IMG/VR virus record: IMGVR_UViG_3300046048_000227
Location: 37,695 to 101,694 of that record
Reading direction: 5' to 3' (one strand)
Length of the DNA stretch: 64,000 nucleotides
From: a virus
Positions within the stretch are counted from its first letter, which is position 1; each line of letters begins with the position of its first letter. The translations under genes were made by a program, and so were the position numbers. Below are positions 4,342-54,621 of this stretch, piece by piece. Under the pieces are notes generated by a model that was not told where the DNA came from, searched no databases, and saw nothing but the letters and a program-made list of their open reading frames with translations.

Positions 4342-6653
4342 CAATAGAGAACGGATACTTTATATACAGTGAGAACGACACTACTCACGATTTAACTGTC
4401 ACAGTCTCAAGTAATAGCGACAGGATATTGGATATTCAGATCATTGTATACGGTGGGGATTATTTATCTAGTGTTGTGCTAGACCCAGGTGGAAATGACG
4501 AGGTTGCACTAGAGTTGCAATCTGGTAATGATGGTGTGGCTTTCTACGGGTCTACCTACTATATAATTAATGCAACTCCTGGAGCAGGTCAAACGCTTAG
4601 AGTAATAACATCTTCTTCCTGTGATGTGCTTATCTCTGTGCTAGATTTGTCCAACATGGACACAACCGCTATTGAAAATGGCTATGCTGTTGGAACTGGC
4701 ACTACCAATGCTCCAACAGTATCATTTTCTACTACCGAAGATGGCGGTCATGTTCATAGTGCGTTTATATCTCAAGCAAATTCCGGTGCAGGAGTAGGAA
4801 CGTGGAGCGGGGTAACTGGGCAAACAACCTTAGATGCAACCGACCAAGGACTCGACCAAACAGGTAGTGCCTATGCTACGCAAACCAGTGCGGGTACTAT
4901 CACTATGAACTACTCAACAACACAAACTGATAACTGGTTGTGTATCGGCACAGCATGGGCAGTTTCATCTGGGCCGGCAGTAGTAACAGGAACAGCTACT
5001 TTATCTGGTACAGGTACATTAACTGCTGCTGGAGATCGAGTACCTATTGTATCTACTGGTTCCGCTACACTAACAGGAACAGGTACGTTAACTGCTTCTG
5101 GCGATAGAGTAATAGTTATTTACACTGGCTCTGTTACAATGAGTGGTATTGGAGCATTAAACGCCACAGCAATAGCCATAAACACAGGATCAGCTACTTT
5201 AGCTGGTACTGGCACATTAGCTGGTATAGGTATAGCATTAAGCTTTGGTACAGCTACGCTTACTGGAACAGGTACATTAACAGCGGCTGGTGAAGCAATA
5301 TCTGCTGTAATTACTGGCTCCGTAACCATGGCTGGAACTGGCACTCTAGCTAGCGCAGGCGTGCAGCTAACTACCGAAGTAGTCATTGGCGAAAACAATA
5401 ATGGTTATATCTCTGCTTTGCCTGGAGAGTATGGTAGAGCTATAAGTAGTATGGCAGACACACAAGATGTAATGCTAACCTACTCTCTACAATTCTCAGA
5501 TACTGGTGGTTCTTTCTTGCATAGAACGTTCTTAAGGGCTTCTGGAGACTGGGCAGCGGCAACATTGCCTACTACTGGTGTAGAATTTGAGATCGACAAC
5601 GTTAACGGTACCGTAGATATCTATAATATAACTACTGGTTCTAGATCAGCGTCACAAGCCAACGGTACCTACACAAATGATACTGTTCTTAAACAAGTTA
5701 AGATAGAAGTAGCTGGTACTACTGCTAGAATAAAAATTTGGAATGACGGTAGCGCAGAACCTGGAACTTGGGCTGCTACATGGTCTTCAGCACCACAAAA
5801 CTCTGGTACTTTACAGCTTGGGCTATGGTCTACCACAGACTGGCACAAAATAACTATAGACGATGTACTAGCCACGTATCCAGCAGTTACTGGTTCAGTA
5901 ACCATGGCCGGTACTGGTGCCTTGACTGCCTCAGCTATAGGAATTTCAAGCAGCACAGCTACGTTAGCTGGACAAGGAACATTGACAGCAACAGCGATAG
6001 CTGTAAGTAATGGTACTGTCACTTTATCTGGTACAGGCACGATTATAGCCGCTGGTTCTGTAATTGGTATCTTGCTAGGAACTGCTACACTGTCAGGAAC
6101 TGGCACGCTAACTGGTACTGGTATTGCTTTAAGCTCTGGAACCGTAACATTAACAGGTACTGGTACTCTTACAGCAGCAGGAGATATAGCTACTGCCATA
6201 GAAACAGGTTCAGCTACATTGTCTGGTACTGGTGTATTAACTGGTATTGGTATAGCCATAAGCAATGGTACAATTACTATGTCTGGAGCGGGTACTTTAA
6301 CAGCTTCAGGAATAGGTATTGCTAATGGCACAGCTACGCTAACAGGTACAGGTACTTTAACTGCTTACGGAACTGTTCCTGCTGGAATAGAGACTGGTAG
6401 TGCTACTCTTGTAGGTACTGGGGCACTAACAGGAATAGGTATTGCTATCTCCTTTGGTACAGCTACCTTAACTGGTGCAGGTACTTTAACAACAAGCAGC
6501 TTGGCTATAACTACAGGAGCAAGCACATTAACAGGAGTAGGCACACTTACAGCAACAGGGCAGGGAGCTTATCCGTTCCCATTCTTTGATGATTTTACTG
6601 GCGTAACAGGCGATCCACTAGACAGCACTAAGTGGACACAGGCGGTAACATAA
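4338..6653 (+). CDS. Gly/Thr repeat protein with one lectin-like domain (771 aa)
   Basis: Residues 1-214 form a beta-rich N-terminal domain. About six copies of a repeat of the type GSATLTGTGTLTASG follow, then a laminin-G or concanavalin-like domain (about residues 345-516, with LQFSDTGGSFLHRTFLRAS and WSSAPQNSG), then about eleven more repeats. The protein ends in FFDDFTGVTGDPLDSTKW, the head of a missing domain. The repeats have a 15-residue core within a period of 16-23 residues and should form an extended beta-roll stalk. The stop overlaps the next start (TAATG), and the next protein has the same architecture. Likely an extended fibre or decoration protein; the stalk length is expected to vary by recombination. 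Confidence 0.65.
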   Translation: MTIENGYFIYSENDTTHDLTVTVSSNSDRILDIQIIVYGGDYLSSVVLDPGGNDEVALELQSGNDGVAFYGSTYYIINATPGAGQTLRVITSSSCDVLISVLDLSNMDTTAIENGYAVGTGTTNAPTVSFSTTEDGGHVHSAFISQANSGAGVGTWSGVTGQTTLDATDQGLDQTGSAYATQTSAGTITMNYSTTQTDNWLCIGTAWAVSSGPAVVTGTATLSGTGTLTAAGDRVPIVSTGSATLTGTGTLTASGDRVIVIYTGSVTMSGIGALNATAIAINTGSATLAGTGTLAGIGIALSFGTATLTGTGTLTAAGEAISAVITGSVTMAGTGTLASAGVQLTTEVVIGENNNGYISALPGEYGRAISSMADTQDVMLTYSLQFSDTGGSFLHRTFLRASGDWAAATLPTTGVEFEIDNVNGTVDIYNITTGSRSASQANGTYTNDTVLKQVKIEVAGTTARIKIWNDGSAEPGTWAATWSSAPQNSGTLQLGLWSTTDWHKITIDDVLATYPAVTGSVTMAGTGALTASAIGISSSTATLAGQGTLTATAIAVSNGTVTLSGTGTIIAAGSVIGILLGTATLSGTGTLTGTGIALSSGTVTLTGTGTLTAAGDIATAIETGSATLSGTGVLTGIGIAISNGTITMSGAGTLTASGIGIANGTATLTGTGTLTAYGTVPAGIETGSATLVGTGALTGIGIAISFGTATLTGAGTLTTSSLAITTGASTLTGVGTLTATGQGAYPFPFFDDFTGVTGDPLDSTKWTQAVT
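4978..6565 (+). repeat. In-frame coding repeats, array 1 (about 17 units)
   Basis: Direct in-frame repeats, commonly 60 bp apart, each encode a core like GTATLSGTGTLTA. The array is interrupted by a lectin-like domain at about 5370-5885. Codons vary between units (synonymous drift), so the array is old and held by selection on protein sequence, not a recent tandem expansion. Confidence 0.85.
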
Positions 6654-9600
6654 TGGCACAATTTGGTCGTCCAGATGCAGACATTACCACAACTAACTGG
6701 GGAATAACTCCTTTATTTTCAAAAATAAATGAAGTAAGTCCTTCAGAGCTTGATTACATCACTGCGGTAGCTAACGCAACAGCAACCGCAGAAGTTGGCT
6801 TACCTGATCTGGACGACCCTACTTCTTCTAGCTTACATACAATTAGATTTAGAGCAAGAGCAGAGAAAACTAATAAGGCGGCACTGTTAACAACATCTTT
6901 GGTGCAAGGTACTACCATAATAGGATCGTTAGTACTGGACGCAGAAGTAGACATGACAACAAGCTTTGCGTCGTACTCCTTTACACTAACTAGCGGAGAA
7001 GCTGACAACATAACAGACTATACAGACTTGCGCTTACGTTTTGAACAAACAACTGCTACAGCAGGTAACTTTGTGGAAGTTTCTTGGGCTGAGTTTGAGA
7101 TACCAGATGCCATTGTTATTCATACAGGCACAGTAACTATGTCTGGTACTGGTGCGTTATCTTCAGGCAGCACAGTAATACCAGGAACTACAAAGTCTGG
7201 ATCAACTACGTTAGTGGGTACTGGTGCACTGTCTGCTGCTGGCATACGAATAGGCACAGAAGCAGCAATTAATGCAAATGCGGGAAGGTTATTTGTCCTT
7301 ACTGATAGCAATTATGTACGTGCTAGAGCCTACGTAGAGACTACCCACAGTGACTACGAAGTAAACCACACTCTACAATTCTCTGATATTACTGGTGCTT
7401 ACATATATAGGGTTTACGTGCGTGCTTCAGACGATTGGGCAGACAGTGATAAACCAACTACTGCTGTTGAGTTTGCTATAGACCCTGTAAACGGCACTAT
7501 TAATATATATAACATTACAAGTGGTTCTCGTGGAGCATCACAAGACAGTGATACTTTTACAGCAAACACTAACTTAAAGAATTTACGCATCCAATGTGAC
7601 GGTACTACAGTACGGGCTAAAATTTGGGAAGGCTCAGAACCTGCAACTTGGAATGTATCTTGGTCTTCAGCACCAACTAACAACGGTGTTGTACAAATAG
7701 GTCTTTGGTCTACTACAGGACAGCACTATGTAGACTTAGATGATTTTGACGTTGACGATGTACAAGGAGCAGTGTCTGGTTCTGTCACAATGTCTGGCAC
7801 AGGAACATTATCTGCTTCAGGAATAGCTATAAGTAGGGGAACTGCTACATTAACAGGCACTGGTGCGCTAACTACTGTTGGTTTGGCTATAAGCAATGGC
7901 ACAGCTACACTCTCTGGCACAGGCACATTAACTGCCGCAGGAGATAAGGTTGCAGTTATCTATACTGGCACAGTTACCATGTCTGGTTCTGGCGTGCTAA
8001 CTAGTGTTGGTATAGCAATTAGTTCAGGCACTGTAACATTCTCAGGAACAGGCGCATTAACTGGTATAGGTATAGGAATTGCCTCATCAACAGCTACTTT
8101 GGCTGGTATAGGAACGCTGGCTAGCACAAGTCTGGCGATCTCAAACGGTACCGCAACTCTTAGTGGAGTAGGTACACTGTCTGCTGCTGGAGATGTAGCG
8201 TCTGTCACTTCCTACGGCACTGTAACTATGTCAGGCACTGGTGCATTAAGTGCTTCAGCTATAGCTACCTCTTTTGGAACAGCCACACTAAGCGGGGCAG
8301 GAACGCTAGCTGCAATTGGTTTGGCTATTTCCTTGGGCACAGCTACACTTTCAGGCGTAGGTACATTGTCTGCACAAGGCACAGTAGGCGGAGTAGTAGA
8401 AGGCACTGTAACTATGACAGGGACAGGAGCACTTTCTGCTTCAGCAATTGCTATCAGCAACGGAACTGCTACATTAGCTGGTATTGGCGCATTAGACGCC
8501 ATAGGCATAGCTATAGCTAACGGCACAGCTACGCTATCAGGTGCTGGTGCTTTAACTGCCTTTGCTACAACGTTTGCAGTAGGAAAAGCAACGCTATCAG
8601 GTACTGGAGCGTTATCTGCTACAGCTATAGCGATCTCCACAGGCACAGCTACACTAGTAGGAACTGGAACTCTATCCGCTAGTGGTACAGTAGGTGGAGT
8701 AATCTCTGGTACTGTTACCTTAGCTGGCACTGGAACTATAACAGCTTCAGCTATAGCTATAAGTTCAGGAACTGCTACCCTAAGTGGTACAGGTACGCTA
8801 ACTGCTACTGGAGATAGGGTAGCTGCTATACATACAGGCACTGTTACTATGTCGGGCACTGGTGCTCTGTCTACATTTGGACTCCAGCTAACTAACGAGA
8901 TTATAATTGACGGGAACAGGGCAAAGATCGCCGCTCTTGCTGGTCACTACGGAACACTGATCACTAAGATGGATGATCAAGAACAGGACTACGTAACTAC
9001 GTATTTCCTACAATTCTCCGATACTGACGGTGCCTACGTTCACAGGCTATTTGTACGTGCCTCTGCTGATTGGGCAGCAAGTGACCGACCAACAACAGGT
9101 ATTGAGTTTGAATTTGACAACACAGACGGTTCAATCACTATATATAATATTGTAGCTGGTGTTCGCTCTGCTTCTCAAGACACAGGCACATTCACAAATA
9201 ACACTAACCTGAAACGTGTTAAGATAGAGAATGACGGCACAACAGTTAGGGCTAAGATATGGGATGATGGCTCCGGCGAACCTGGAACATGGGATGTATC
9301 ATGGTCTTCCGCTCCACAGAACGCAGGAGTAACACAAGCTGGTCTATGGTGCACAACTGGTTGGCACTCTATCCACCTAGACGACTTTAACGTATCTTAC
9401 TTAGCAATTACTGGCTCTGTTACTATGTCAGGGACTGGTACATTAACTGCCTCTGCTAGCACAGACGCTTACGCAACAGCTACATTAGCTGGAGTAGGTA
9501 CACTAAACGCAATAGGAATAGCTATTAGTAGTGGAACTGCTACACTAAGTGGCACTGGTACAATTACTGCTTCTTCTATAGCGATCTCTAACGGCACAGC

Positions 9601-10885
9601 CGCACTAACAGGTCTTGGTACCATAACAGCTTACGGTACTGTTGGTGGTATAGTTACTGGTTCAGCTACTTTAGCTGGTACGGGCGCACTAACAGCTACA
9701 GCAATTTCTATAACTAATGGAACCGCTACCATAACTGGTCAAGGAACTTTAACAGCCACAGGTGATGTAGTAGAAGTAGTTGTATACGGCACAGTAACAA
9801 TGTCTGGGGCTGGAACACTAACTGCTACAAGCATAGCTATTTCCTTGGGCACAGCTACACTAAGCGGTGTAGGTATCCTTACAGCATATGGTACTGTTGG
9901 TGGGATTGTTTCTGGTACCGTAACATTATCAGGAAATGGTGCGCTAACAGCTATAGCTATAGCTATCTCCACAGGTACAGCTACTATAGCAGGTACTGGC
10001 ACATTAACTGCACACGCCAACATAGATGCAGTAGCTAGTGCTACCCTAACAGGTGCTGGTAGTCTAACAGCACATGCCAACATAGATGCCCTAGGAAAAG
10101 CAACTTTGTCTGGTATTGGTGCTATATCTTGTTACGGAGAGATAGCTGGACAAGCGTGGGGTAGGGCCATACTGTCTGGAACAGGAAATATCACTGCTTC
10201 TGCTAACATAGACGCAGTAGCTAGTGCCACACTTTCAGGTACTGGTACTTTGTCTGCCTCTGCTATAGCTATAAGCAGCGGAACAACCACACTAACTGGT
10301 AACGGTGCTTTAACGGCGACTGCAATAGCTATTTCCAGCAGCACAGCCACGTTATCAGGTGTTGGTACACTTACTGCTAGTGGTACAAACTTCTCCATAC
10401 TGTACGGTACTACTACATTCATAGGAACTGGATTACTTACTGCTGTTGGCATAGCAATAAGCAGTAGTTCAGCAATATTAACTGGTACTGGTACACTTAC
10501 TGCCTCTGGTATAGCTCTGTCCTATGGTACTGCTACACTTGTTGGTGCTGGCGATCTAACAACTTCTAGCATAGCTATATCCTACGGCACTGCTGTACTA
10601 ACAGGATTAGGGACTATTACAGCACACGCCACACTAAAAATGTGGGGTACTGCTACACTTTACGGTATTGGTAATCTGTATGTAACCATTACAGAATTTA
10701 TGTCAATACCTATCTACGCAGACGCCATAGTAAGCAACTTAATTAATAGATCAGCTAGGTTAAATTCCTTTATTGATGCTGACGCTGAAATGTCTGATGT
10801 AATTAACGTAGATAACGTTAAGGTTAACGATACGATTGTAGTAGATGCAGAGATCATGGAAGAAGACAAAGACATTTACTTCTAA
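6653..10885 (+). CDS. Giant Gly/Thr repeat fibre with two lectin-like domains (1410 aa)
   Basis: The chosen start at 6653 overlaps the previous stop and follows AGGCGG; an upstream in-frame start at 6632 lies inside the previous gene. Residues 1-160 form an N-terminal domain opening MAQFGRPDADITTTNW, which I associate with phage structural proteins. By my count 41 repeats of the TATLSGTGTLTA type follow, interrupted by two lectin-like domains (about residues 200-376 and 742-920) homologous to the one in the preceding protein. The C-terminal 75 residues are non-repetitive and acidic, possibly a capping or attachment domain. A receptor-binding or decoration fibre is likely; whether it joins the tail or head is unknown. 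Confidence 0.7.
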   Translation: MAQFGRPDADITTTNWGITPLFSKINEVSPSELDYITAVANATATAEVGLPDLDDPTSSSLHTIRFRARAEKTNKAALLTTSLVQGTTIIGSLVLDAEVDMTTSFASYSFTLTSGEADNITDYTDLRLRFEQTTATAGNFVEVSWAEFEIPDAIVIHTGTVTMSGTGALSSGSTVIPGTTKSGSTTLVGTGALSAAGIRIGTEAAINANAGRLFVLTDSNYVRARAYVETTHSDYEVNHTLQFSDITGAYIYRVYVRASDDWADSDKPTTAVEFAIDPVNGTINIYNITSGSRGASQDSDTFTANTNLKNLRIQCDGTTVRAKIWEGSEPATWNVSWSSAPTNNGVVQIGLWSTTGQHYVDLDDFDVDDVQGAVSGSVTMSGTGTLSASGIAISRGTATLTGTGALTTVGLAISNGTATLSGTGTLTAAGDKVAVIYTGTVTMSGSGVLTSVGIAISSGTVTFSGTGALTGIGIGIASSTATLAGIGTLASTSLAISNGTATLSGVGTLSAAGDVASVTSYGTVTMSGTGALSASAIATSFGTATLSGAGTLAAIGLAISLGTATLSGVGTLSAQGTVGGVVEGTVTMTGTGALSASAIAISNGTATLAGIGALDAIGIAIANGTATLSGAGALTAFATTFAVGKATLSGTGALSATAIAISTGTATLVGTGTLSASGTVGGVISGTVTLAGTGTITASAIAISSGTATLSGTGTLTATGDRVAAIHTGTVTMSGTGALSTFGLQLTNEIIIDGNRAKIAALAGHYGTLITKMDDQEQDYVTTYFLQFSDTDGAYVHRLFVRASADWAASDRPTTGIEFEFDNTDGSITIYNIVAGVRSASQDTGTFTNNTNLKRVKIENDGTTVRAKIWDDGSGEPGTWDVSWSSAPQNAGVTQAGLWCTTGWHSIHLDDFNVSYLAITGSVTMSGTGTLTASASTDAYATATLAGVGTLNAIGIAISSGTATLSGTGTITASSIAISNGTAALTGLGTITAYGTVGGIVTGSATLAGTGALTATAISITNGTATITGQGTLTATGDVVEVVVYGTVTMSGAGTLTATSIAISLGTATLSGVGILTAYGTVGGIVSGTVTLSGNGALTAIAIAISTGTATIAGTGTLTAHANIDAVASATLTGAGSLTAHANIDALGKATLSGIGAISCYGEIAGQAWGRAILSGTGNITASANIDAVASATLSGTGTLSASAIAISSGTTTLTGNGALTATAIAISSSTATLSGVGTLTASGTNFSILYGTTTFIGTGLLTAVGIAISSSSAILTGTGTLTASGIALSYGTATLVGAGDLTTSSIAISYGTAVLTGLGTITAHATLKMWGTATLYGIGNLYVTITEFMSIPIYADAIVSNLINRSARLNSFIDADAEMSDVINVDNVKVNDTIVVDAEIMEEDKDIYF
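7123..10680 (+). repeat. In-frame coding repeats, array 2 (about 41 units)
   Basis: Same repeat family as array 1, arranged as 2, 18 and 21 units separated by lectin-like domains at about 7252-7780 and 8880-9415. Units alternate between TATLSGTGTLTA and TVTMSGTGALSA variants. Linkers such as IAISNG (5-6 residues) or VGGVVSG give spacings of 16-23 residues. Long antisense frames over this region are a by-product of the periodic codons. Confidence 0.85.
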
Positions 10886-10894
10886 AGGTGACAT

Positions 10895-11221
10895 ATGGTA
10901 GATAAAAGATCACAAGTACATGTAGGGGATGTAGGAAATGTTATATACCTTACAGTAAGGAATAGAGAAACTAAAGCAGCAATTGATATTTCTCAAGCTA
11001 CACTTATGGAAATTAATTTCTGGCTGCCTGGAGAAACATCTGCTATTAAGAAAACTGGTTCGTTTTATACAGACGGTTCTGACGGAGTAGTACAATATGC
11101 CATTGAAGCAGACATAACTCCTACTGCTGGTGTAATAGACTATGAACTTGAATTAACGCTTCCTAATAGGTTCTGGACTAGTGACCCTATACAATTATAC
11201 GTAAAAGAAAATTTGTCATAA
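10895..11221 (+). CDS. BppU-type baseplate or fibre N-terminal Ig-like protein
   Basis: The 108-residue protein reads like the immunoglobulin-fold N-terminal domain of lactococcal-phage baseplate upper protein BppU. It has an opening VGDVGNVIYLTV, an ISQATLMEINFWLPG strand pair, then DGSDGVVQYAIEADITPTAG and a final beta strand. In that family the domain docks receptor-binding proteins to the baseplate; here it stands alone as a one-domain gene. AAAGGTGAC precedes the start. It closes the fibre gene run and may act as an adaptor for the repeat fibres upstream. Confidence 0.7.
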   Translation: MVDKRSQVHVGDVGNVIYLTVRNRETKAAIDISQATLMEINFWLPGETSAIKKTGSFYTDGSDGVVQYAIEADITPTAGVIDYELELTLPNRFWTSDPIQLYVKENLS

Positions 11222-11241
11222 TTTAAAAAATGTGGTATAAT
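11213..11241 (+). promoter_or_regulatory. Sigma-70-like promoter for the tRNA and zinc-ribbon genes
   Basis: TTGTCA (11213-11218), 17 bp, then TATAAT (11236-11241) with an extended TGTGG before the -10 box. The -35 box sits in the last codons of the BppU-like gene. Predicted start is about 11248, a few bases before tRNA-Gly. Confidence 0.8.
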
Positions 11242-11251
11242 AAGTAATCAA

Positions 11252-11324
11252 GCGTTTATAGTGTTTAACGGTAGCATAACTGGCTTCCAACCAGCAGGTG
11301 AGAGTTCGACTCTCTCTAGACGCT
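11252..11324 (+). tRNA. tRNA-Gly (anticodon UCC)
   Basis: The acceptor stem GCGTTTA pairs with TAGACGC with one wobble. The anticodon stem is CTGG/CCAG around the loop CTTCCAA, giving UCC. The T arm is GAGAG-TTCGACT-CTCTC, and U73 is normal for bacterial tRNA-Gly. The outermost anticodon-stem pair is an A-C mismatch, and no CCA is encoded. It reads GGA and probably GGG, and lies just after the Gly-rich fibre genes. Confidence 0.88.
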
Positions 11325-11336
11325 CAGGAGAAAAGT

Positions 11337-11555
11337 ATGGCATTATACGAATATGAGTGTGAAACATGTGGGAACATAGATACTTTGTTTGTTCTATCAG
11401 AAGATCGTGATAACCCGCCACAAAAATGTCCTGTTTGTGGAGAAAGGGAGTATAGAAGGTTCTTTGCTACACCAAGTATAAAAATAAAAAACCCTGTTGT
11501 CCAAACAGGCAACTCTTCTGACGCTGTTATAAAAGAAAGAAGGAATGTTGAGTAA
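11337..11555 (+). CDS. FmdB-type zinc ribbon protein (72 aa)
   Basis: The sequence starts MALYEYECETCG and has a second cysteine pair CPVCG, the C-x2-C...C-x2-C layout of FmdB-family putative regulatory proteins. The family's function is not settled; its members bind one zinc through four cysteines. The chosen start follows AGGAGAAAAGT. A longer in-frame version would run back into tRNA-Gly and is rejected. It sits between two tRNA genes and shares their transcript. Confidence 0.75.
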   Translation: MALYEYECETCGNIDTLFVLSEDRDNPPQKCPVCGEREYRRFFATPSIKIKNPVVQTGNSSDAVIKERRNVE

Positions 11556-11629
11556 GGAGGCGTAGTTTAACTGGTCAAAATATTTGGCTTACATCCAAGA
11601 GATGGGGTTCGAGTCCTCCGCCTCTACCA
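11556..11629 (+). tRNA. tRNA-Val (anticodon UAC), short T stem
   Basis: The acceptor stem GGAGGCG pairs with CGCCTCT through a terminal G-U. The D stem GTTT/AAAT and anticodon stem TTTGG/CCAAG surround the loop CTTACAT, giving UAC. The T loop TTCGAGT is canonical, but the T stem is only GGGG/CCTC (4 bp) if the acceptor keeps 7 bp. A73 and an encoded CCA follow. It reads GTA, a common valine codon here. It abuts the zinc-ribbon stop codon directly. Confidence 0.82.
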
Positions 11630-43914: not shown

Positions 43915-44151
43915 TTAGTACTCCAATAGCTTTACATTACCAGCTACTATAACTAACTTTATGTTCGGTGTATCCTCTAAACCAAGCACATCATATAATA
44001 GCTTGGCAGTCTCATCTGCTTGCTCTTCTTCTCTCACAATAAGAAGGTACCTTTTGTTTTCATCAAGTTCTGAGATTCCATCTTTAATGGCTTGTGAAAG
44101 CATACTCACAATCTCATCTCTCTGGTTTTTAGATAAAAAACTTAGTACCAT
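43915..44151 (-). CDS. Hypothetical protein downstream of the structured RNA (78 aa)
   Basis: A small alpha/beta protein beginning MVLSFLSKNQRDEIVSML. AGGAGAGGTTT precedes the start, at the 3' end of the structured RNA region. If the RNA is a leader, this is the first gene it could control. No family recognised. Confidence 0.5.
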   Translation of the reverse strand: MVLSFLSKNQRDEIVSMLSQAIKDGISELDENKRYLLIVREEEQADETAKLLYDVLGLEDTPNIKLVIVAGNVKLLEY

Positions 44152-44164
44152 AAACCTCTCCTAG

Positions 44165-44618
44165 TACATCTCTATATAGTAGTACTATATTAAAGCTAAG
44201 TACATTACTTTAGTTTTGTTTGCTCGACCTATTCACAACTTAGCTACACCTCCCCCATACGGTGTAAGCTATTAGCCCTAGCTTACAACATATGAAGGAG
44301 GAGCAGTCACGGTACATGTTTGATCTTGGAGCACCAAGATAGGGAGATTTTGAGCCTAAGAAGACTCCATGATCCCTTTTACACGCTGTATCTGCTTATT
44401 GTCAGGAGCTATGCTCCACTGCCCAGGTAGGTCTTTACCAGCTAGCTTTCGCTATGACAATAACTCCCTTGCTCTCACGAGCAACCTTACGGTGTCCCTA
44501 ATGGGTTCTGGGATTGGGCTAGGACAGTACCTAAGAAGGCGTCCTTCGTCCGCGGACAACAATCGGGGGGTTCCCGATATTAGTCTATGTACTTCACGTT
44601 TCCGCATTCGTGAAGATT
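44165..44618 (-). ncRNA. Large structured RNA (about 420-450 nt), class unknown
   Basis: No reading frame fits this stretch. It has its own consensus promoter and perfect hairpins. They include a 5' CTTCACG/CGTGAAG stem three bases from the predicted start, ATCGGG/CCCGAT, GAAGG/CCTTC, TTGCTC-GTGA-GAGCAA with a GNRA-type loop, TAGC-GAAA-GCTA, GGAGC/GCTCC, ATCTTGG/CCAAGAT, and a 9-bp TTATTGTCA/TGACAATAA stem enclosing several of them. The ends pair over AAGTACAT/ATGTACTT (44587-44594 with 44198-44205), giving a closed multi-domain fold. Large ornate phage RNAs such as GOLLD and ROOL look like this in size and habit, but I cannot assign it. RNase P, tmRNA and group I features are absent. Confidence 0.75.
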
Positions 44619-44624
44619 ACAGTT

Positions 44625-44653
44625 ATTATAACACACTACAGTTACAAAGTCAA
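44625..44653 (-). promoter_or_regulatory. Consensus promoter for the structured RNA
   Basis: Minus strand TTGACT, 17 bp, TATAAT with extended GTGTGT. The -35 box lies at the end of the large terminase gene, so the RNA is made even when the late operon read-through is low. Predicted start about 44618. Confidence 0.9.
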
Positions 44654-46531
44654 GGACTTGTCTGCGTGTAAGTACTTAATGGCGTATCTAACAACGTTCT
44701 CTGGGTAAGCTGCTCTAGCTTTAACCAACGTAACGGACAACGGGAATGGGGTTTTCTCTGTGCCTTCTTTGTTATCAATGAACCACTTAAGCTGGTCTAA
44801 AGGTACCTGTGCTAGGAAATAAACTGCACCTGATAAAGCACCCCTAGTAATCCCTTCGTCAACTATTTCGTTTGGATCGTTAAGCGTTGATACTCTCCCT
44901 CCAGCACCTACTACTACAATTTTGTAATCTTTTCCTCTTGCTATTTCTACAGCAGTCATTAAGTACAGTAAAGCATGTGCATAGTGAGACGGTCTTAGTT
45001 CTACCCATACAGGCTCTTCTACAACACCACTAGGTTTCTTTACTTCTCTAAGGTCTCTCTTAATAGCAGTAAGGTGATCAATAATTGTTTCTGTTTCCTG
45101 GGGCAACTCACTAAGACTTCCAGGTAATAGCACACCACCGTCTTTAATTTTTTCCATAAGCCTGTCAAACCCTTCAGACCTGCCTATTAAAACACTGGTA
45201 TTTACTCTTCCGTCTTTCTCTTTCTTCAGTGTCCACTCAATACTACTTTGAGTATAGTCTGCTAACAACAGCTTACCCATAAAATCTTTTTGTAGATTTC
45301 TAGCTGAGTGTCTATTTGGATCAGCGTCTAGTACAGCTTTGTTAACATTAAACAAGCGCATAAGTACGCCTAGCCTATCAAACCCAATCTCGAATGGGAT
45401 AGACTCCATGTGTACAATTCTAGGTATGCTTTCACCCTTCGGTATTTTAGCTATTAAAACTTGCAACTCGTTGCCCTGATCTGCACCCAAATAATAAGTT
45501 GAGTTTCCATCATAGGATTCTTCTAAGGTAACATAGAACTCGCTAGACAATGTGCTAGCTAGAATATCATCTCTAGAAAGAGAGCCGACACCGCTCTCTC
45601 TAGGAACACCTAAGTTTTTCCTATAAAATTCCCGTATCTTAGTTAGTGGGTCACGGTATACAGCGTACAAATGGGGTGCTGTGTGTGTCATCATCTGTGA
45701 GATGCTATAGCCAACCATAGTACTGCTGCGCTCTGGGTATTCTGGTACCCACATACCTTCTTGAATTTGTTCTAAAGTTAGGGGTTTGTCGCAACGAGCA
45801 CAGCCAAAGAACACTTTGGTCGGATTAGCCTCTGGCCCCTTTATACGTAGATTAACTTCCCAATTTAGTACTTGTAGGTGGTTACAAGCAGGGCAGGAGA
45901 CAAACCATTGCCGACGGTCACTAATACTGTACCTAGCATTAATGCCGTAGTTAGCTAGGGTAGGGGTGGAGAACATAAGAGATAGCTTCCAGTCTGAATC
46001 ATCCATTCTGTTCTGCGCTGTAGATACATTATTCATATCAGATAAATCTAACTCATCTATGAATACTACATCAGCAGGCATCATCCTAGGTTCTACTGTT
46101 GATTCCATAAAGAAGAGAAAGGAGTTACCAAATTTTTTAGCTCTGGTAGAGTCAGGAGAACCTAACAATCCTCTCAACCTATCAGAGTTAGAGATCATTG
46201 GGTCTATACGAGTAGTAACAAAGTCTATGTAGTCTTGCTGTCTTGGCAACATGTACATAGCTCTGATTGACCAAAAATCAGCAAAGTGAAATAGCCGCAC
46301 AGCAGCCATAGTTGTCATACCACATTGTGTTGACTTTTGAATAACTAAATTTTTAGCTTCACCCACTGGATTGTTCTCTATCCTGTATGGGTTAACTGAT
46401 TTATATATTTCAGGAGTCCACTTACGTTCAGCAATTTCCCACTTTTTGCTCTCTAGCAAATCAACATAAGAAATACCGTAAGTTAATATATCTCTCCTAG
46501 CTAGCGTCTCTATCTTCTTCTGTTTGTTCAT
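44642..46531 (-). CDS. terL: Large terminase subunit (GpA-type), 629 aa
   Basis: DNA-packaging motor and nuclease. The start is the ATG at 46531 rather than the TTG before it. Walker A-like KSTQCGMTT and Walker B VVFIDELDLSD mark the ATPase. A zinc-binding CPACNHLQVL ... CARCDKPLT segment (about 215-255) is typical of the GpA (lambda-like) family. Nuclease acids are in YYLGADQGNELQ and VLDADPNRHSARN. Small terminase lies directly upstream with a 35-base overlap, as usual. Confidence 0.9.
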   Translation of the reverse strand: MNKQKKIETLARRDILTYGISYVDLLESKKWEIAERKWTPEIYKSVNPYRIENNPVGEAKNLVIQKSTQCGMTTMAAVRLFHFADFWSIRAMYMLPRQQDYIDFVTTRIDPMISNSDRLRGLLGSPDSTRAKKFGNSFLFFMESTVEPRMMPADVVFIDELDLSDMNNVSTAQNRMDDSDWKLSLMFSTPTLANYGINARYSISDRRQWFVSCPACNHLQVLNWEVNLRIKGPEANPTKVFFGCARCDKPLTLEQIQEGMWVPEYPERSSTMVGYSISQMMTHTAPHLYAVYRDPLTKIREFYRKNLGVPRESGVGSLSRDDILASTLSSEFYVTLEESYDGNSTYYLGADQGNELQVLIAKIPKGESIPRIVHMESIPFEIGFDRLGVLMRLFNVNKAVLDADPNRHSARNLQKDFMGKLLLADYTQSSIEWTLKKEKDGRVNTSVLIGRSEGFDRLMEKIKDGGVLLPGSLSELPQETETIIDHLTAIKRDLREVKKPSGVVEEPVWVELRPSHYAHALLYLMTAVEIARGKDYKIVVVGAGGRVSTLNDPNEIVDEGITRGALSGAVYFLAQVPLDQLKWFIDNKEGTEKTPFPLSVTLVKARAAYPENVVRYAIKYLHADKSLTL

Positions 46532-47294
46532 CAATACCCTTTATGACCTCTGAGATTGTGCCAGGGGCTAGCATGAATATTGTTTCATACATCTCTGACG
46601 ATAGTTTTTCTTTTATCCTGATATGAATATCAAGTCTTTCAAATCGTTTTCCACAAACATGACAAAGAATACCTTCTTTGTTTTTCTCAAGCACACCAAG
46701 CTCCCCATGGTTAGGGTTTCCCTCTTCATCAAGCAGTGGCCCTTTAGGCTCTTCCTCAATAATTCTAATAGTAGTCTCTATTGCATCGTCCTCGTAGTCT
46801 TTTGCGGTGTCTACTACGTAATCAAGAGCACTCTGCCTAGCTTTAAATAAAGGAGTTTCCTCGCTGATCTTAATATTGATATCAAGTTTGTTTCCGAAGA
46901 ATAGGGATAGTACATAACGAGCGTGCTGTGCTTTTATTCCTAGTAGTTTAGCGTTAACATCTTCGTTGGCAGAAAACACATCAGCAGATGTTTTTAGTGC
47001 CTCTAAAAATTGCTGTTCCATCTGACTCATCCGCCACAGTGACAAATCTTTCCTAGCCAGTGCCACTGCTCTTGTCATGTCAGGATATTTTGTCATATAA
47101 TTTTTAACTGTCTGACGTTTGACGCCTAATTTGTCAGCGATTTTGTATGTCGGATATCCTGCCACTAACATCTCTGCCATTTCTACAATCTTGTTTGGCA
47201 TGTCAGATTCTACTAATGTTTCTGTCAAAGTATTGATTGTTTCTTGCCAAGTTACTGCATCAATCTCTGGGTATTTTACTATCTCGTTTGTCAT
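46497..47294 (-). CDS. terS: Small terminase subunit with Ros/MucR-like zinc finger
   Basis: Recognises the packaging site. The start at 47294 follows TGGAG; a longer frame begins 11 codons earlier. Residues 40-75 hold a helix-turn-helix (AGYPTYKIADKLGVKRQTVKNY), as in small terminases. A C-terminal segment near 220 (CHVCGKRFERLDIHIRIKEK) matches the C-x2-C...H pattern of Ros/MucR zinc fingers, with a helix after it. This would give a second DNA-binding element. It overlaps the large terminase by 35 bases. Confidence 0.8.
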   Translation of the reverse strand: MTNEIVKYPEIDAVTWQETINTLTETLVESDMPNKIVEMAEMLVAGYPTYKIADKLGVKRQTVKNYMTKYPDMTRAVALARKDLSLWRMSQMEQQFLEALKTSADVFSANEDVNAKLLGIKAQHARYVLSLFFGNKLDINIKISEETPLFKARQSALDYVVDTAKDYEDDAIETTIRIIEEEPKGPLLDEEGNPNHGELGVLEKNKEGILCHVCGKRFERLDIHIRIKEKLSSEMYETIFMLAPGTISEVIKGIDEQTEEDRDAS

Positions 47295-47295
47295 G

Positions 47296-47526
47296 TTAGT
47301 ACTCCAGGCTATCAGTGTCACGTTCAAGATCGGTTAATGGCACTTCGTTATTTGTTACTCTAGTATCTTGTCTGCGCTCTCTTTGTTCTGCATTCCACAA
47401 GTATCTTAACCAGTTGGGCCAATCTCTCGAACTTCTCCCATATATTTTTTCGCAGCTAGAACAAATTGCAAATCTCCACGTTATTCGTCTCCCACAACCA
47501 GTTAAGCATTCATGGTATCTGGACAT
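47296..47526 (-). CDS. Cysteine-rich zinc protein (76 aa)
   Basis: CLTGCGRRITWRFAICSSC gives two close cysteine pairs, a short zinc ribbon, followed by a basic C-terminus. It overlaps the sigma-like gene by 25 bases. The small terminase start follows its stop. Its role is unknown; it may modify transcription or DNA recognition. Confidence 0.55.
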   Translation of the reverse strand: MSRYHECLTGCGRRITWRFAICSSCEKIYGRSSRDWPNWLRYLWNAEQRERRQDTRVTNNEVPLTDLERDTDSLEY

Positions 47527-47867
47527 TTTATTTTTCCTCGTATTAAAATCTTCAAAGAGGCGAGGGCTTCCAGCTTTTTACTCCAGATGGTAGTTCTCGA
47601 TACCTCCAATATAGTACATATCTCTGTTTGTTTAAAACCAGCAGTTATTAGGGCAATTATAGCTTGTTGGTCTTCAGGCAAACAGTCAACAGCCTCCCAT
47701 AGAGCAACAGTATCTAGGTACTCTACGTGGCTATGGTCTGTCATATAATCCATTTCTTCTGGTAGCACTTGTTCCTCCTCACCTTCCAGGTAACTGTGCC
47801 AATAATGTTCTTTTTCTATGTAAAACTTTACTTTGTCAATCTCCAACAACCAAAGAGGGCTACTCAT
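47502..47867 (-). CDS. Sigma-region-4-like late regulator (tentative)
   Basis: First gene of the late operon. The C-terminal half (ALWEAVDCLPEDQQAIIALITAGFKQTEICTILE) reads like sigma-70 region 4 or the LuxR-type/ArpU-like helix-turn-helix: a helix with LPEDQQAI, then a turn and KQTEICTILEVSRTTIW as recognition helix. It may direct RNA polymerase to late promoters such as those with the ATTGTAG motif. The second of two adjacent ATGs (47867) is better spaced from AAGGAG. Confidence 0.65.
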   Translation of the reverse strand: MSSPLWLLEIDKVKFYIEKEHYWHSYLEGEEEQVLPEEMDYMTDHSHVEYLDTVALWEAVDCLPEDQQAIIALITAGFKQTEICTILEVSRTTIWSKKLEALASLKILIRGKIKCPDTMNA

Positions 47868-47898
47868 CATGCTCCTTTCAGCTATAATGTCCCGCTTA

Positions 47899-47927
47899 AT
47901 TATACCATAACAATCTTATTTTGTCCA
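47899..47927 (-). promoter_or_regulatory. Minus promoter of the late operon
   Basis: Minus strand TGGACA, 17 bp, TATAAT with extended TATGG. It opens the 29-kb late operon with the sigma-like gene first. Confidence 0.85.
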
Positions 47928-54570: not shown

Positions 54571-54599
54571 ATTATATCATGGAAGATACCCATTGACAA
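54571..54599 (-). promoter_or_regulatory. Minus promoter of the Gp157/Gam-like gene
   Basis: Minus strand TTGTCA, 17 bp, TATAAT. The -35 box overlaps that of the divergent plus promoter by 5 bases. Confidence 0.85.
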
Positions 54600-54621
54600 G
54601 ACTGAATCCTCATGATATAAT
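54593..54621 (+). promoter_or_regulatory. Plus promoter of the second early operon
   Basis: TTGACA (54593-54598), 17 bp, TATAAT (54616-54621). It shares its -35 region with the minus promoter and drives the genes from 54646. Confidence 0.88.

Follow-up and report, generated by a model that had tools for sequence, protein, structure and literature searches.

A putative stand-alone RNA of the EGFOA class between the large terminase and head genes of a virus genome

The window analysed here is a stretch of 64,000 nucleotides, positions 37695-101694 of a 101,694-base IMG/VR virus record. The gene for the large terminase subunit (terL, GpA_ATPase, 44642-46534) lies on its minus strand and is preceded in the order of transcription by a gene for an HTH protein (46497-47327, minus). 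An initial annotation had placed an ornate non-coding RNA between terL and the head genes, and the gene order bears this location out. Beyond the RNA there follow on the minus strand, in the sense of transcription, a 78-aa ORF (43915-44151) with its own ribosome-binding site (AGGAGAGG), a 66-aa ORF, a gene for an exonuclease-domain protein, the portal gene and the head genes. As the flanking genes are on the minus strand the RNA was read on this strand, to which the coordinates of all its elements refer.

The RNA is headed by a sigma70-type promoter (TTGACT-17-TATAAT, 44653-44625, minus) with an extended −10 element (TG). This promoter had been described as perfect with a 17-bp spacer; the promoter and its spacer of 17 stand, while the match is near-perfect with 11 out of 12 consensus positions. 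It is one of 11 sites in the 64-kb window that score at least 11/12. Other features of the window concern promoters and stable RNAs as well. At 54593-54620 a 12/12 sigma70 promoter on the plus strand and an 11/12 promoter on the minus strand overlap, with starts within 6 bases of each other. Genes for tRNA-Gly(UCC) and tRNA-Val(UAC) are located at 11213-11629 (plus) downstream of an 11/12 consensus promoter, and a 122-aa protein with a sigma-70 region 4 domain is encoded at 47502-47870 (minus), with divergent consensus promoters nearby at 47927/47933. A 1417-aa protein (6632-10885, plus) with many near-identical short repeats of the TATLSGTGTLTA type probably belongs to the virion as a tail-fibre or adhesin-like protein.

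The conserved extent of the structured RNA is 44236-44618 (minus), with ends that we infer; the transcript may reach approximately 44165 or beyond. This leads to a size of approximately 370-450 nt in the phage of the window and of 300-500 nt across homologues. Since the conserved RNA ends near 44249, followed by a short conserved tail, the extent and length of the initial annotation hold to about 70 nt, the deviation lying on the 3' side. The minus strand folds with z = −5.06 and none of 100 shuffled sequences was equally stable; the plus strand folds more weakly (z = −3.44). Two ORFs overlap the RNA, one of 100 aa on the plus strand and one of 51 aa on the minus strand. In view of the conserved RNA pairing of this region, the ORFs were put aside as candidates for coding sequences.

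The 5' part of the RNA begins with hairpin P1 (CUUCACG-(AAUGCGGAAA)-CGUGAAG, 44592-44615), the loop of which contains the segment GCGGA (44605-44601). The complementary segment UCCGC (44556-44552) is located in the loop of hairpin M2 (GUCC-(GCGGACGAA)-GGAC, 44541-44557), and both together form the predicted five-base kissing pair KL1. In 11 out of 11 RNAs the complement of their own M2 5-mer was found in the 5' region, in contrast to only 8 out of 44 matches with the 5-mers of other RNAs, and five variants of the pair occur among the 11 RNAs. A further stable hairpin (AUCGGG-AACCC-CCCGAU, 44562-44578) appears in the minimum free energy fold of the window. P1 and several of the window's hairpins have little comparative support. 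Pairing of the ends AAGUACAU/AUGUACUU (44594-44587/44205-44198) had been suggested to close the whole molecule. The letters exist, yet L119, the nearest relative, did not show this helix when inspected by eye, and it competes with P1; we rejected it.

The central part is organized around one conserved loop. Hairpin H4 (GCU-GGUAAAG-ACCU-ACCUGGGC-AGU, 44418-44442) carries the partners of two pseudoknots. In PK1 the segment CCCAG (44508-44512) pairs with CUGGG (44426-44422) on the 3' side of the H4 loop; the pairing is kept via UCCAG/CUGGA in two relatives (L115, L119) and via CCCAA/UUGGG in a third (L116), with one failure (L123). In PK2 the four bases after CCGUN pair with the four bases between GGUAAAG and ACC of the H4 loop, which in the window are AGGU (44484-44487, after CACCGUA) and ACCU (44432-44429). 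The other hairpins described before are all present, including those with GUGA and GAAA loops and a 9-bp stem that encloses three smaller ones. H1 (GCUC-GUGA-GAGC, 44471-44482) matches a hairpin of the Rfam EGFOA model, and the 9-bp stem P4 (UUAUUGUCA, 44455-44463, paired with UGACAAUAA, 44396-44404) surrounds H3 (UAGC-GAAA-GCUA, 44443-44454, found in the fold and in the Rfam EGFOA alignment), H4 and a hairpin GGAGC-AUA-GCUCC (44405-44417), the counterpart of which in L119 is GAAC-UUCG-GUUC. Eleven relatives possess a helix P2 around the CCCAG segment, and P2b joins the next 4-7 bases to the strand beyond P2, which results in an H-type pseudoknot. The window and L119 do not possess P2, and their P2b is a hairpin of 3-4 bp that is weak alone (in the window 3 bp, CCC-AUUA-GGG, 44496-44505). 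An earlier reading of P2b in the window as AACC/GGUU was dropped because it would overlap the AGGU of PK2.

The 3' domain (44303-44395) is a predicted three-way junction of P5 (44395-44392/44306-44303), P6 (44377-44373/44345-44341, with a hairpin at 44367-44352) and the P7 hairpin (44340-44323). The last helix of the conserved RNA is P8, a pyrimidine/purine hairpin (CCUCCUUCAUAUG...CGUAUGGGGGAGG, 44249-44301), after which a conserved GUNUA follows. A perfect-stem version of P8 was counted in 25 out of 45 loci; the underlying 'CCC..GGG' test misses mismatched hairpins, that of the window included, and catches some unrelated ones, for example in L015. We saw no intrinsic terminator downstream of P8 in the window, and read-through into the head genes is therefore possible in the clade of RNAs linked to terL.

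Covariation among homologues downstream of terL, a check proposed together with the initial annotation, was calculated from a MAFFT alignment of 14 terL-linked cores for a named structure of 18 pairs including one pseudoknot. The covariation score was 0.595 compared to 0.201 ± 0.026 for shuffled alignments, and none of 500 shuffles reached the observed value. Paired cells amounted to 85.5% (63.9% shuffled), a value which drops to 30-46% if the partners are slid by 1-3 columns, and 57 double-sided changes were found compared to 18.3. RNAalifold on the MAFFT alignment A7 recovered H4 alone, with 5 pairs that are all changed on both sides, because variable insertions split P4 and pseudoknots are not modelled; for this reason the count over the named structure was used. 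Together with the fold stability, this comparison argues for the ornate RNA that had been called from the letters of the window.

The individual helices show the same tendency. The 14 RNAs possess 14 different P4 strand pairs, all of which pair, and the strand pairs of P2 (11) and P2b (14) are likewise all different and all fully paired; P2, P2b, P4 and H4 are fully paired in each relative scored, in a strand table that was partly picked by eye and thus leans towards pairing. The same holds for the strands of the 3' domain, where 118 out of 120 cells are paired over 7-8 RNAs (P5 33/34, P6 37/38, P7 48/48) and all or nearly all strands differ. Least open to a bias of this kind are the alignment-based count and the fixed-position test of PK2. 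In the latter, PK2 forms in 42 out of 59 non-redundant loci, chance hits included, whereas the mean of the permutations was 4.1 and the largest value of 5000 was 15; the 59 loci contain 28 strand combinations. In the alignment of the 14 cores 98.2% of the PK2 cells are paired, and all four pairs (4/4) have double-sided changes.

The initial annotation could not match the RNA to a class. Such a class exists: a covariance search with the Rfam models, proposed as a check as well, leads to EGFOA (RF02955), which matches at 44396-44517 (minus) over the full length of the model (positions 1-108) with 36.9 bits. This is 0.8 bits under the gathering score of 37.7, with an E-value of 5.6e-5 in 801 bases and of 1.7e-6 over the whole record. 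At curated thresholds Rfam reports two tRNAs only, and at an E-value threshold nothing but EGFOA has a meaningful score. Five relatives at the same site behind terL exceed the EGFOA cut-off (L112 49.0, L123 42.9, L125 40.8, L127 38.5 and L118 37.8 bits). The conserved letters of the EGFOA core (CCCAG, ACCGU and GGUAAAG....ACCUGGGC) are present in the window RNA, which shares the consensus CCCAG/CCGUN/GGUAAAG-NNNN-ACCUGGGC with the class, and the consensus helices H1, P4, H3 and H4 occur in the same order.

For the reciprocal direction a model (R1) was built from the 14 terL-linked cores only. It finds EGFOA loci in place and over the full length, among others L010 (2.1e-7), L095 (4.7e-6), L097 (1.3e-5), L019 (3.1e-5) and L062 (1.1e-4), with L095 and L097 being EGFOA loci of bacteria. 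R1 gave no match in the chance hits L008, L016, L025 and L033 nor in the terL relatives L128, L130 and L131, which do not carry the RNA, and for two further chance loci, L106 and L107, its E-values were only 0.7-0.9. As these reciprocal searches succeed, we regard the window RNA, on the grounds of sequence comparison, as a divergent EGFOA homologue that falls marginally below one curated number.

Further members were collected by scanning for the H4 loop. The pattern GGTAAAG-N4-ACCTGGGC yielded 68 loci in IMG/VR; of 37 records that were examined, 10 exceed the cut-off for EGFOA, and many others with the same architecture score lower. The scan of bacterial genomes yielded 19 loci, and all 13 genomes tested (13/13) pass. 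Culturable Bacillales are among the bacteria with a chromosomal copy, for instance Cytobacillus firmus NBRC 15306 (L108), Lysinibacillus alkalisoli (L096) and Paenibacillus sediminis (L110). Three hits of the bacterial scan (L102, L106, L107) read as chance hits in coding DNA, and the same applies to quite a few other loci of the pattern scans, among them L008, L016, L025 and L033; these have no PK2 partner. In the genomes EGFOA occurs sporadically (6 out of 151 genomes, one bacterial family). The Rfam model comprises 108 nt and does not contain the pairs of PK1, PK2 and P2b, in contrast to the 300-500 nt of the window RNA and its relatives with their 5' and 3' domains. Judged from these alignments, EGFOA RNAs exceed the catalogued core several times in length and are more elaborate. 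The RNA is not categorically new, since the class is already known; compared with the 108-nt model, the novel elements are the domains on the 5' and the 3' side, PK2, PK1, P2/P2b and KL1, and the terL-linked group, whose promoter is conserved, is new as well.

Relatives of the window were gathered by searches with terL and portal. The RNA is located directly after terL in at least 13 of them (L077, L112, L115-L120, L122, L123, L125, L126, L127). Most relatives of this group possess a 10-12/12 promoter at −36 to +16 of the terL stop, and by this comparison the promoter is conserved in the terL group: it was found at the 3' end of terL in 11 out of 13 RNA-bearing relatives. The scan detected none in L112 and L122, although in L122 ATGGTATAAT can be read by eye at the promoter site. 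A 10-12/12 sigma70 promoter occurs at the 3' end of terL also in L002, L003, L114, L121 and L124, which have no recognisable core. Class loci that do not belong to the terL group mostly yielded no near-consensus promoter. Neither this RNA nor any of five relatives or members of the class had a nucleotide match among 50,697 cultured phages, and thus no cultured phage with annotation or RNA-seq coverage turned up; the TerL protein reached at most 26% identity among the 40 matches listed.

The 3' site of terL looks as if it were an insertion site for stable RNAs. One tRNA-Gly precedes the RNA immediately in L115 (4783-4854), and six tRNAs in L121 (5460-6790) and five in L124 (5677-7777) are located at or just beyond the site; in most loci no tRNA gene is close. 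Behind terL, L124 carries a different non-coding segment (4950-5330) that is headed by a promoter and seems to be structured, with a similar terminal hairpin (CTTTTTCCCTTTCGTAGGGAGAG) and no recognisable EGFOA core.

We consider it likely that the locus encodes a structured EGFOA-class RNA which stands alone, acts in trans and has its own host-type sigma70 promoter. We infer a distinct, stable transcript that works in trans. By comparison the RNA appears to be dispensable or accessory, being absent in some terL relatives and sporadic elsewhere. This reading of a stand-alone, trans-acting accessory RNA, comparable in its biology to ROOL and GOLLD, is based on the convergent orientation of the next gene in half of the loci and the absence of the RNA from distant terL relatives; its own promoter and the change of neighbours from host to host likewise speak for a stand-alone gene.

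The convergent orientation concerns the possibility that the RNA is a cis-acting 5' leader which controls the expression of the portal and capsid operon as an antiterminator or in the manner of a riboswitch. In the terL clade promoter and RNA do precede the small ORF, the exonuclease gene and the portal gene on the same strand, the missing terminator after P8 would fit, and in L002 and L003 the promoter at the 3' end of terL is retained with a gene directly after it. A leader is nevertheless hard to reconcile with the neighbours: the nearest downstream ORF is convergent to the RNA in 24 out of 47 loci, so that there is no co-directional gene to be led. Moreover the 78-aa ORF of the window has its own ribosome-binding site approximately 90 nt from P8, the fold is far bigger than in most leaders known to date, and the class shifts from one unrelated context to another. 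We regard a leader as rather unlikely.

A packaging or virion RNA that works with terminase or portal seems more improbable still. The position directly after terL is conserved in 14 phages, and there is a precedent for an RNA in a packaging motor, the pRNA of phi29, which is encoded by the phage near packaging and head functions and oligomerises by loop-loop pairing. Size and fold of pRNA are different, though, and neither pRNA nor another packaging family is matched by Rfam. The class is not tied to packaging genes: in large phages it adjoins a baseplate-hub gene (6 loci), and other neighbours in phages include genes for capsid/protease, portal, an AAA/Toprim protein, helicase, primase-like proteins and recombinases, while the chromosomal copies in bacterial genomes have serine recombinases and phage integrases among their neighbours. 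The class occurs in phages as well as in integrated elements. In terL relatives with 33-36% identity (L128, L131) the small ORF follows immediately upon terL, with no RNA in between, and no EGFOA match was found in these records. A packaging function is hard to reconcile with such varied contexts, an inconsistent linkage to the motor and relatives that lack the RNA. The same findings, and the frequently convergent neighbour, weaken the argument from location by which a role in packaging or late expression had been proposed.

That the RNA belongs to no known class and resembles EGFOA by convergence of a short motif could be concluded from the 0.8 bits below the Rfam cut-off and from the 5' and 3' domains outside the model. 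It is already contradicted by the reciprocal searches, the common architecture of PK2, PK1, P4 and H4 and the orthologues at the same site over the cut-off, which makes convergence very improbable. A packaging or replication signal at the level of DNA, without any RNA, would account for the dense inverted repeats beside terL and is hardly credible in view of the dedicated promoter, the G-U-tolerant pairs, the strand asymmetry of stability and pseudoknot pairings that are unexpected from simple inverted repeats.

A hint towards the mechanism of the stand-alone EGFOA RNA arises from its predicted tertiary contacts. Transcribed from its own sigma70 promoter as a separate stable RNA, it would adopt a compact body held by loop-loop contacts, with KL1 connecting the loop of the 5' hairpin to that of M2, and PK1 and PK2 both docking on the single H4 loop. 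The three-way junction of the 3' domain and the terminal pyrimidine/purine hairpin would complete this body. Two contacts on one conserved loop and a kissing pair in the 5' part suggest a rigid scaffold. The most likely action would be that of an RNA scaffold or oligomer which holds a macromolecule of the host or the phage, as proposed for ROOL and GOLLD; by this analogy EGFOA RNAs may oligomerise. No functional description of EGFOA was found in the open literature searched.

The initial annotation had already pointed to GOLLD and ROOL, and size and ornament are indeed comparable, while the window contains no Rfam covariance match to either at gathering thresholds. ROOL is a large ornate RNA of phages and prophages whose function is unknown and which often occurs near tRNA genes; GOLLD, also large and ornate, is found in phages near tRNA islands and consists of a conserved and a variable domain (PMC12286853). 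Both form RNA-only cages through loop-loop contacts (PMC12286853). Loop-loop contacts are common to ROOL and the window RNA, and ROOL differs in its length of approximately 660 nt and in its motifs; many members of GOLLD exceed 800 nt, and their core is different. As a tentative idea, to which we attach a low probability, full-length EGFOA could represent a further family, distinct in sequence and fold from ROOL and GOLLD, that self-assembles by loop-loop contacts into an RNA-only particle, with KL1 or PK1/PK2 being intermolecular and the particle serving as container or scaffold during infection.

With respect to the recent discovery of cages formed by other ornate phage RNAs, what had been a short motif without known meaning becomes a defined RNA of approximately 400 nt, which is open to expression, in vitro synthesis, imaging and deletion from a phage genome. 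The syntenic phages of the terL-linked group provide an RNA with its own strong promoter and natural relatives with and without it.

Two loci of the class offer additional observations. In Peribacillus deserti two near-identical EGFOA RNAs (L101, 3289-3387 and 4906-5004) are located 1.6 kb apart, upstream of genes that by eye encode an HTH protein and a CHC2-like zinc-finger protein. Near the EGFOA RNA of L096 an 18-nt fragment (4506-4523) matches the 3' end of tmRNA; it may be the attachment site of an element that has integrated in ssrA.
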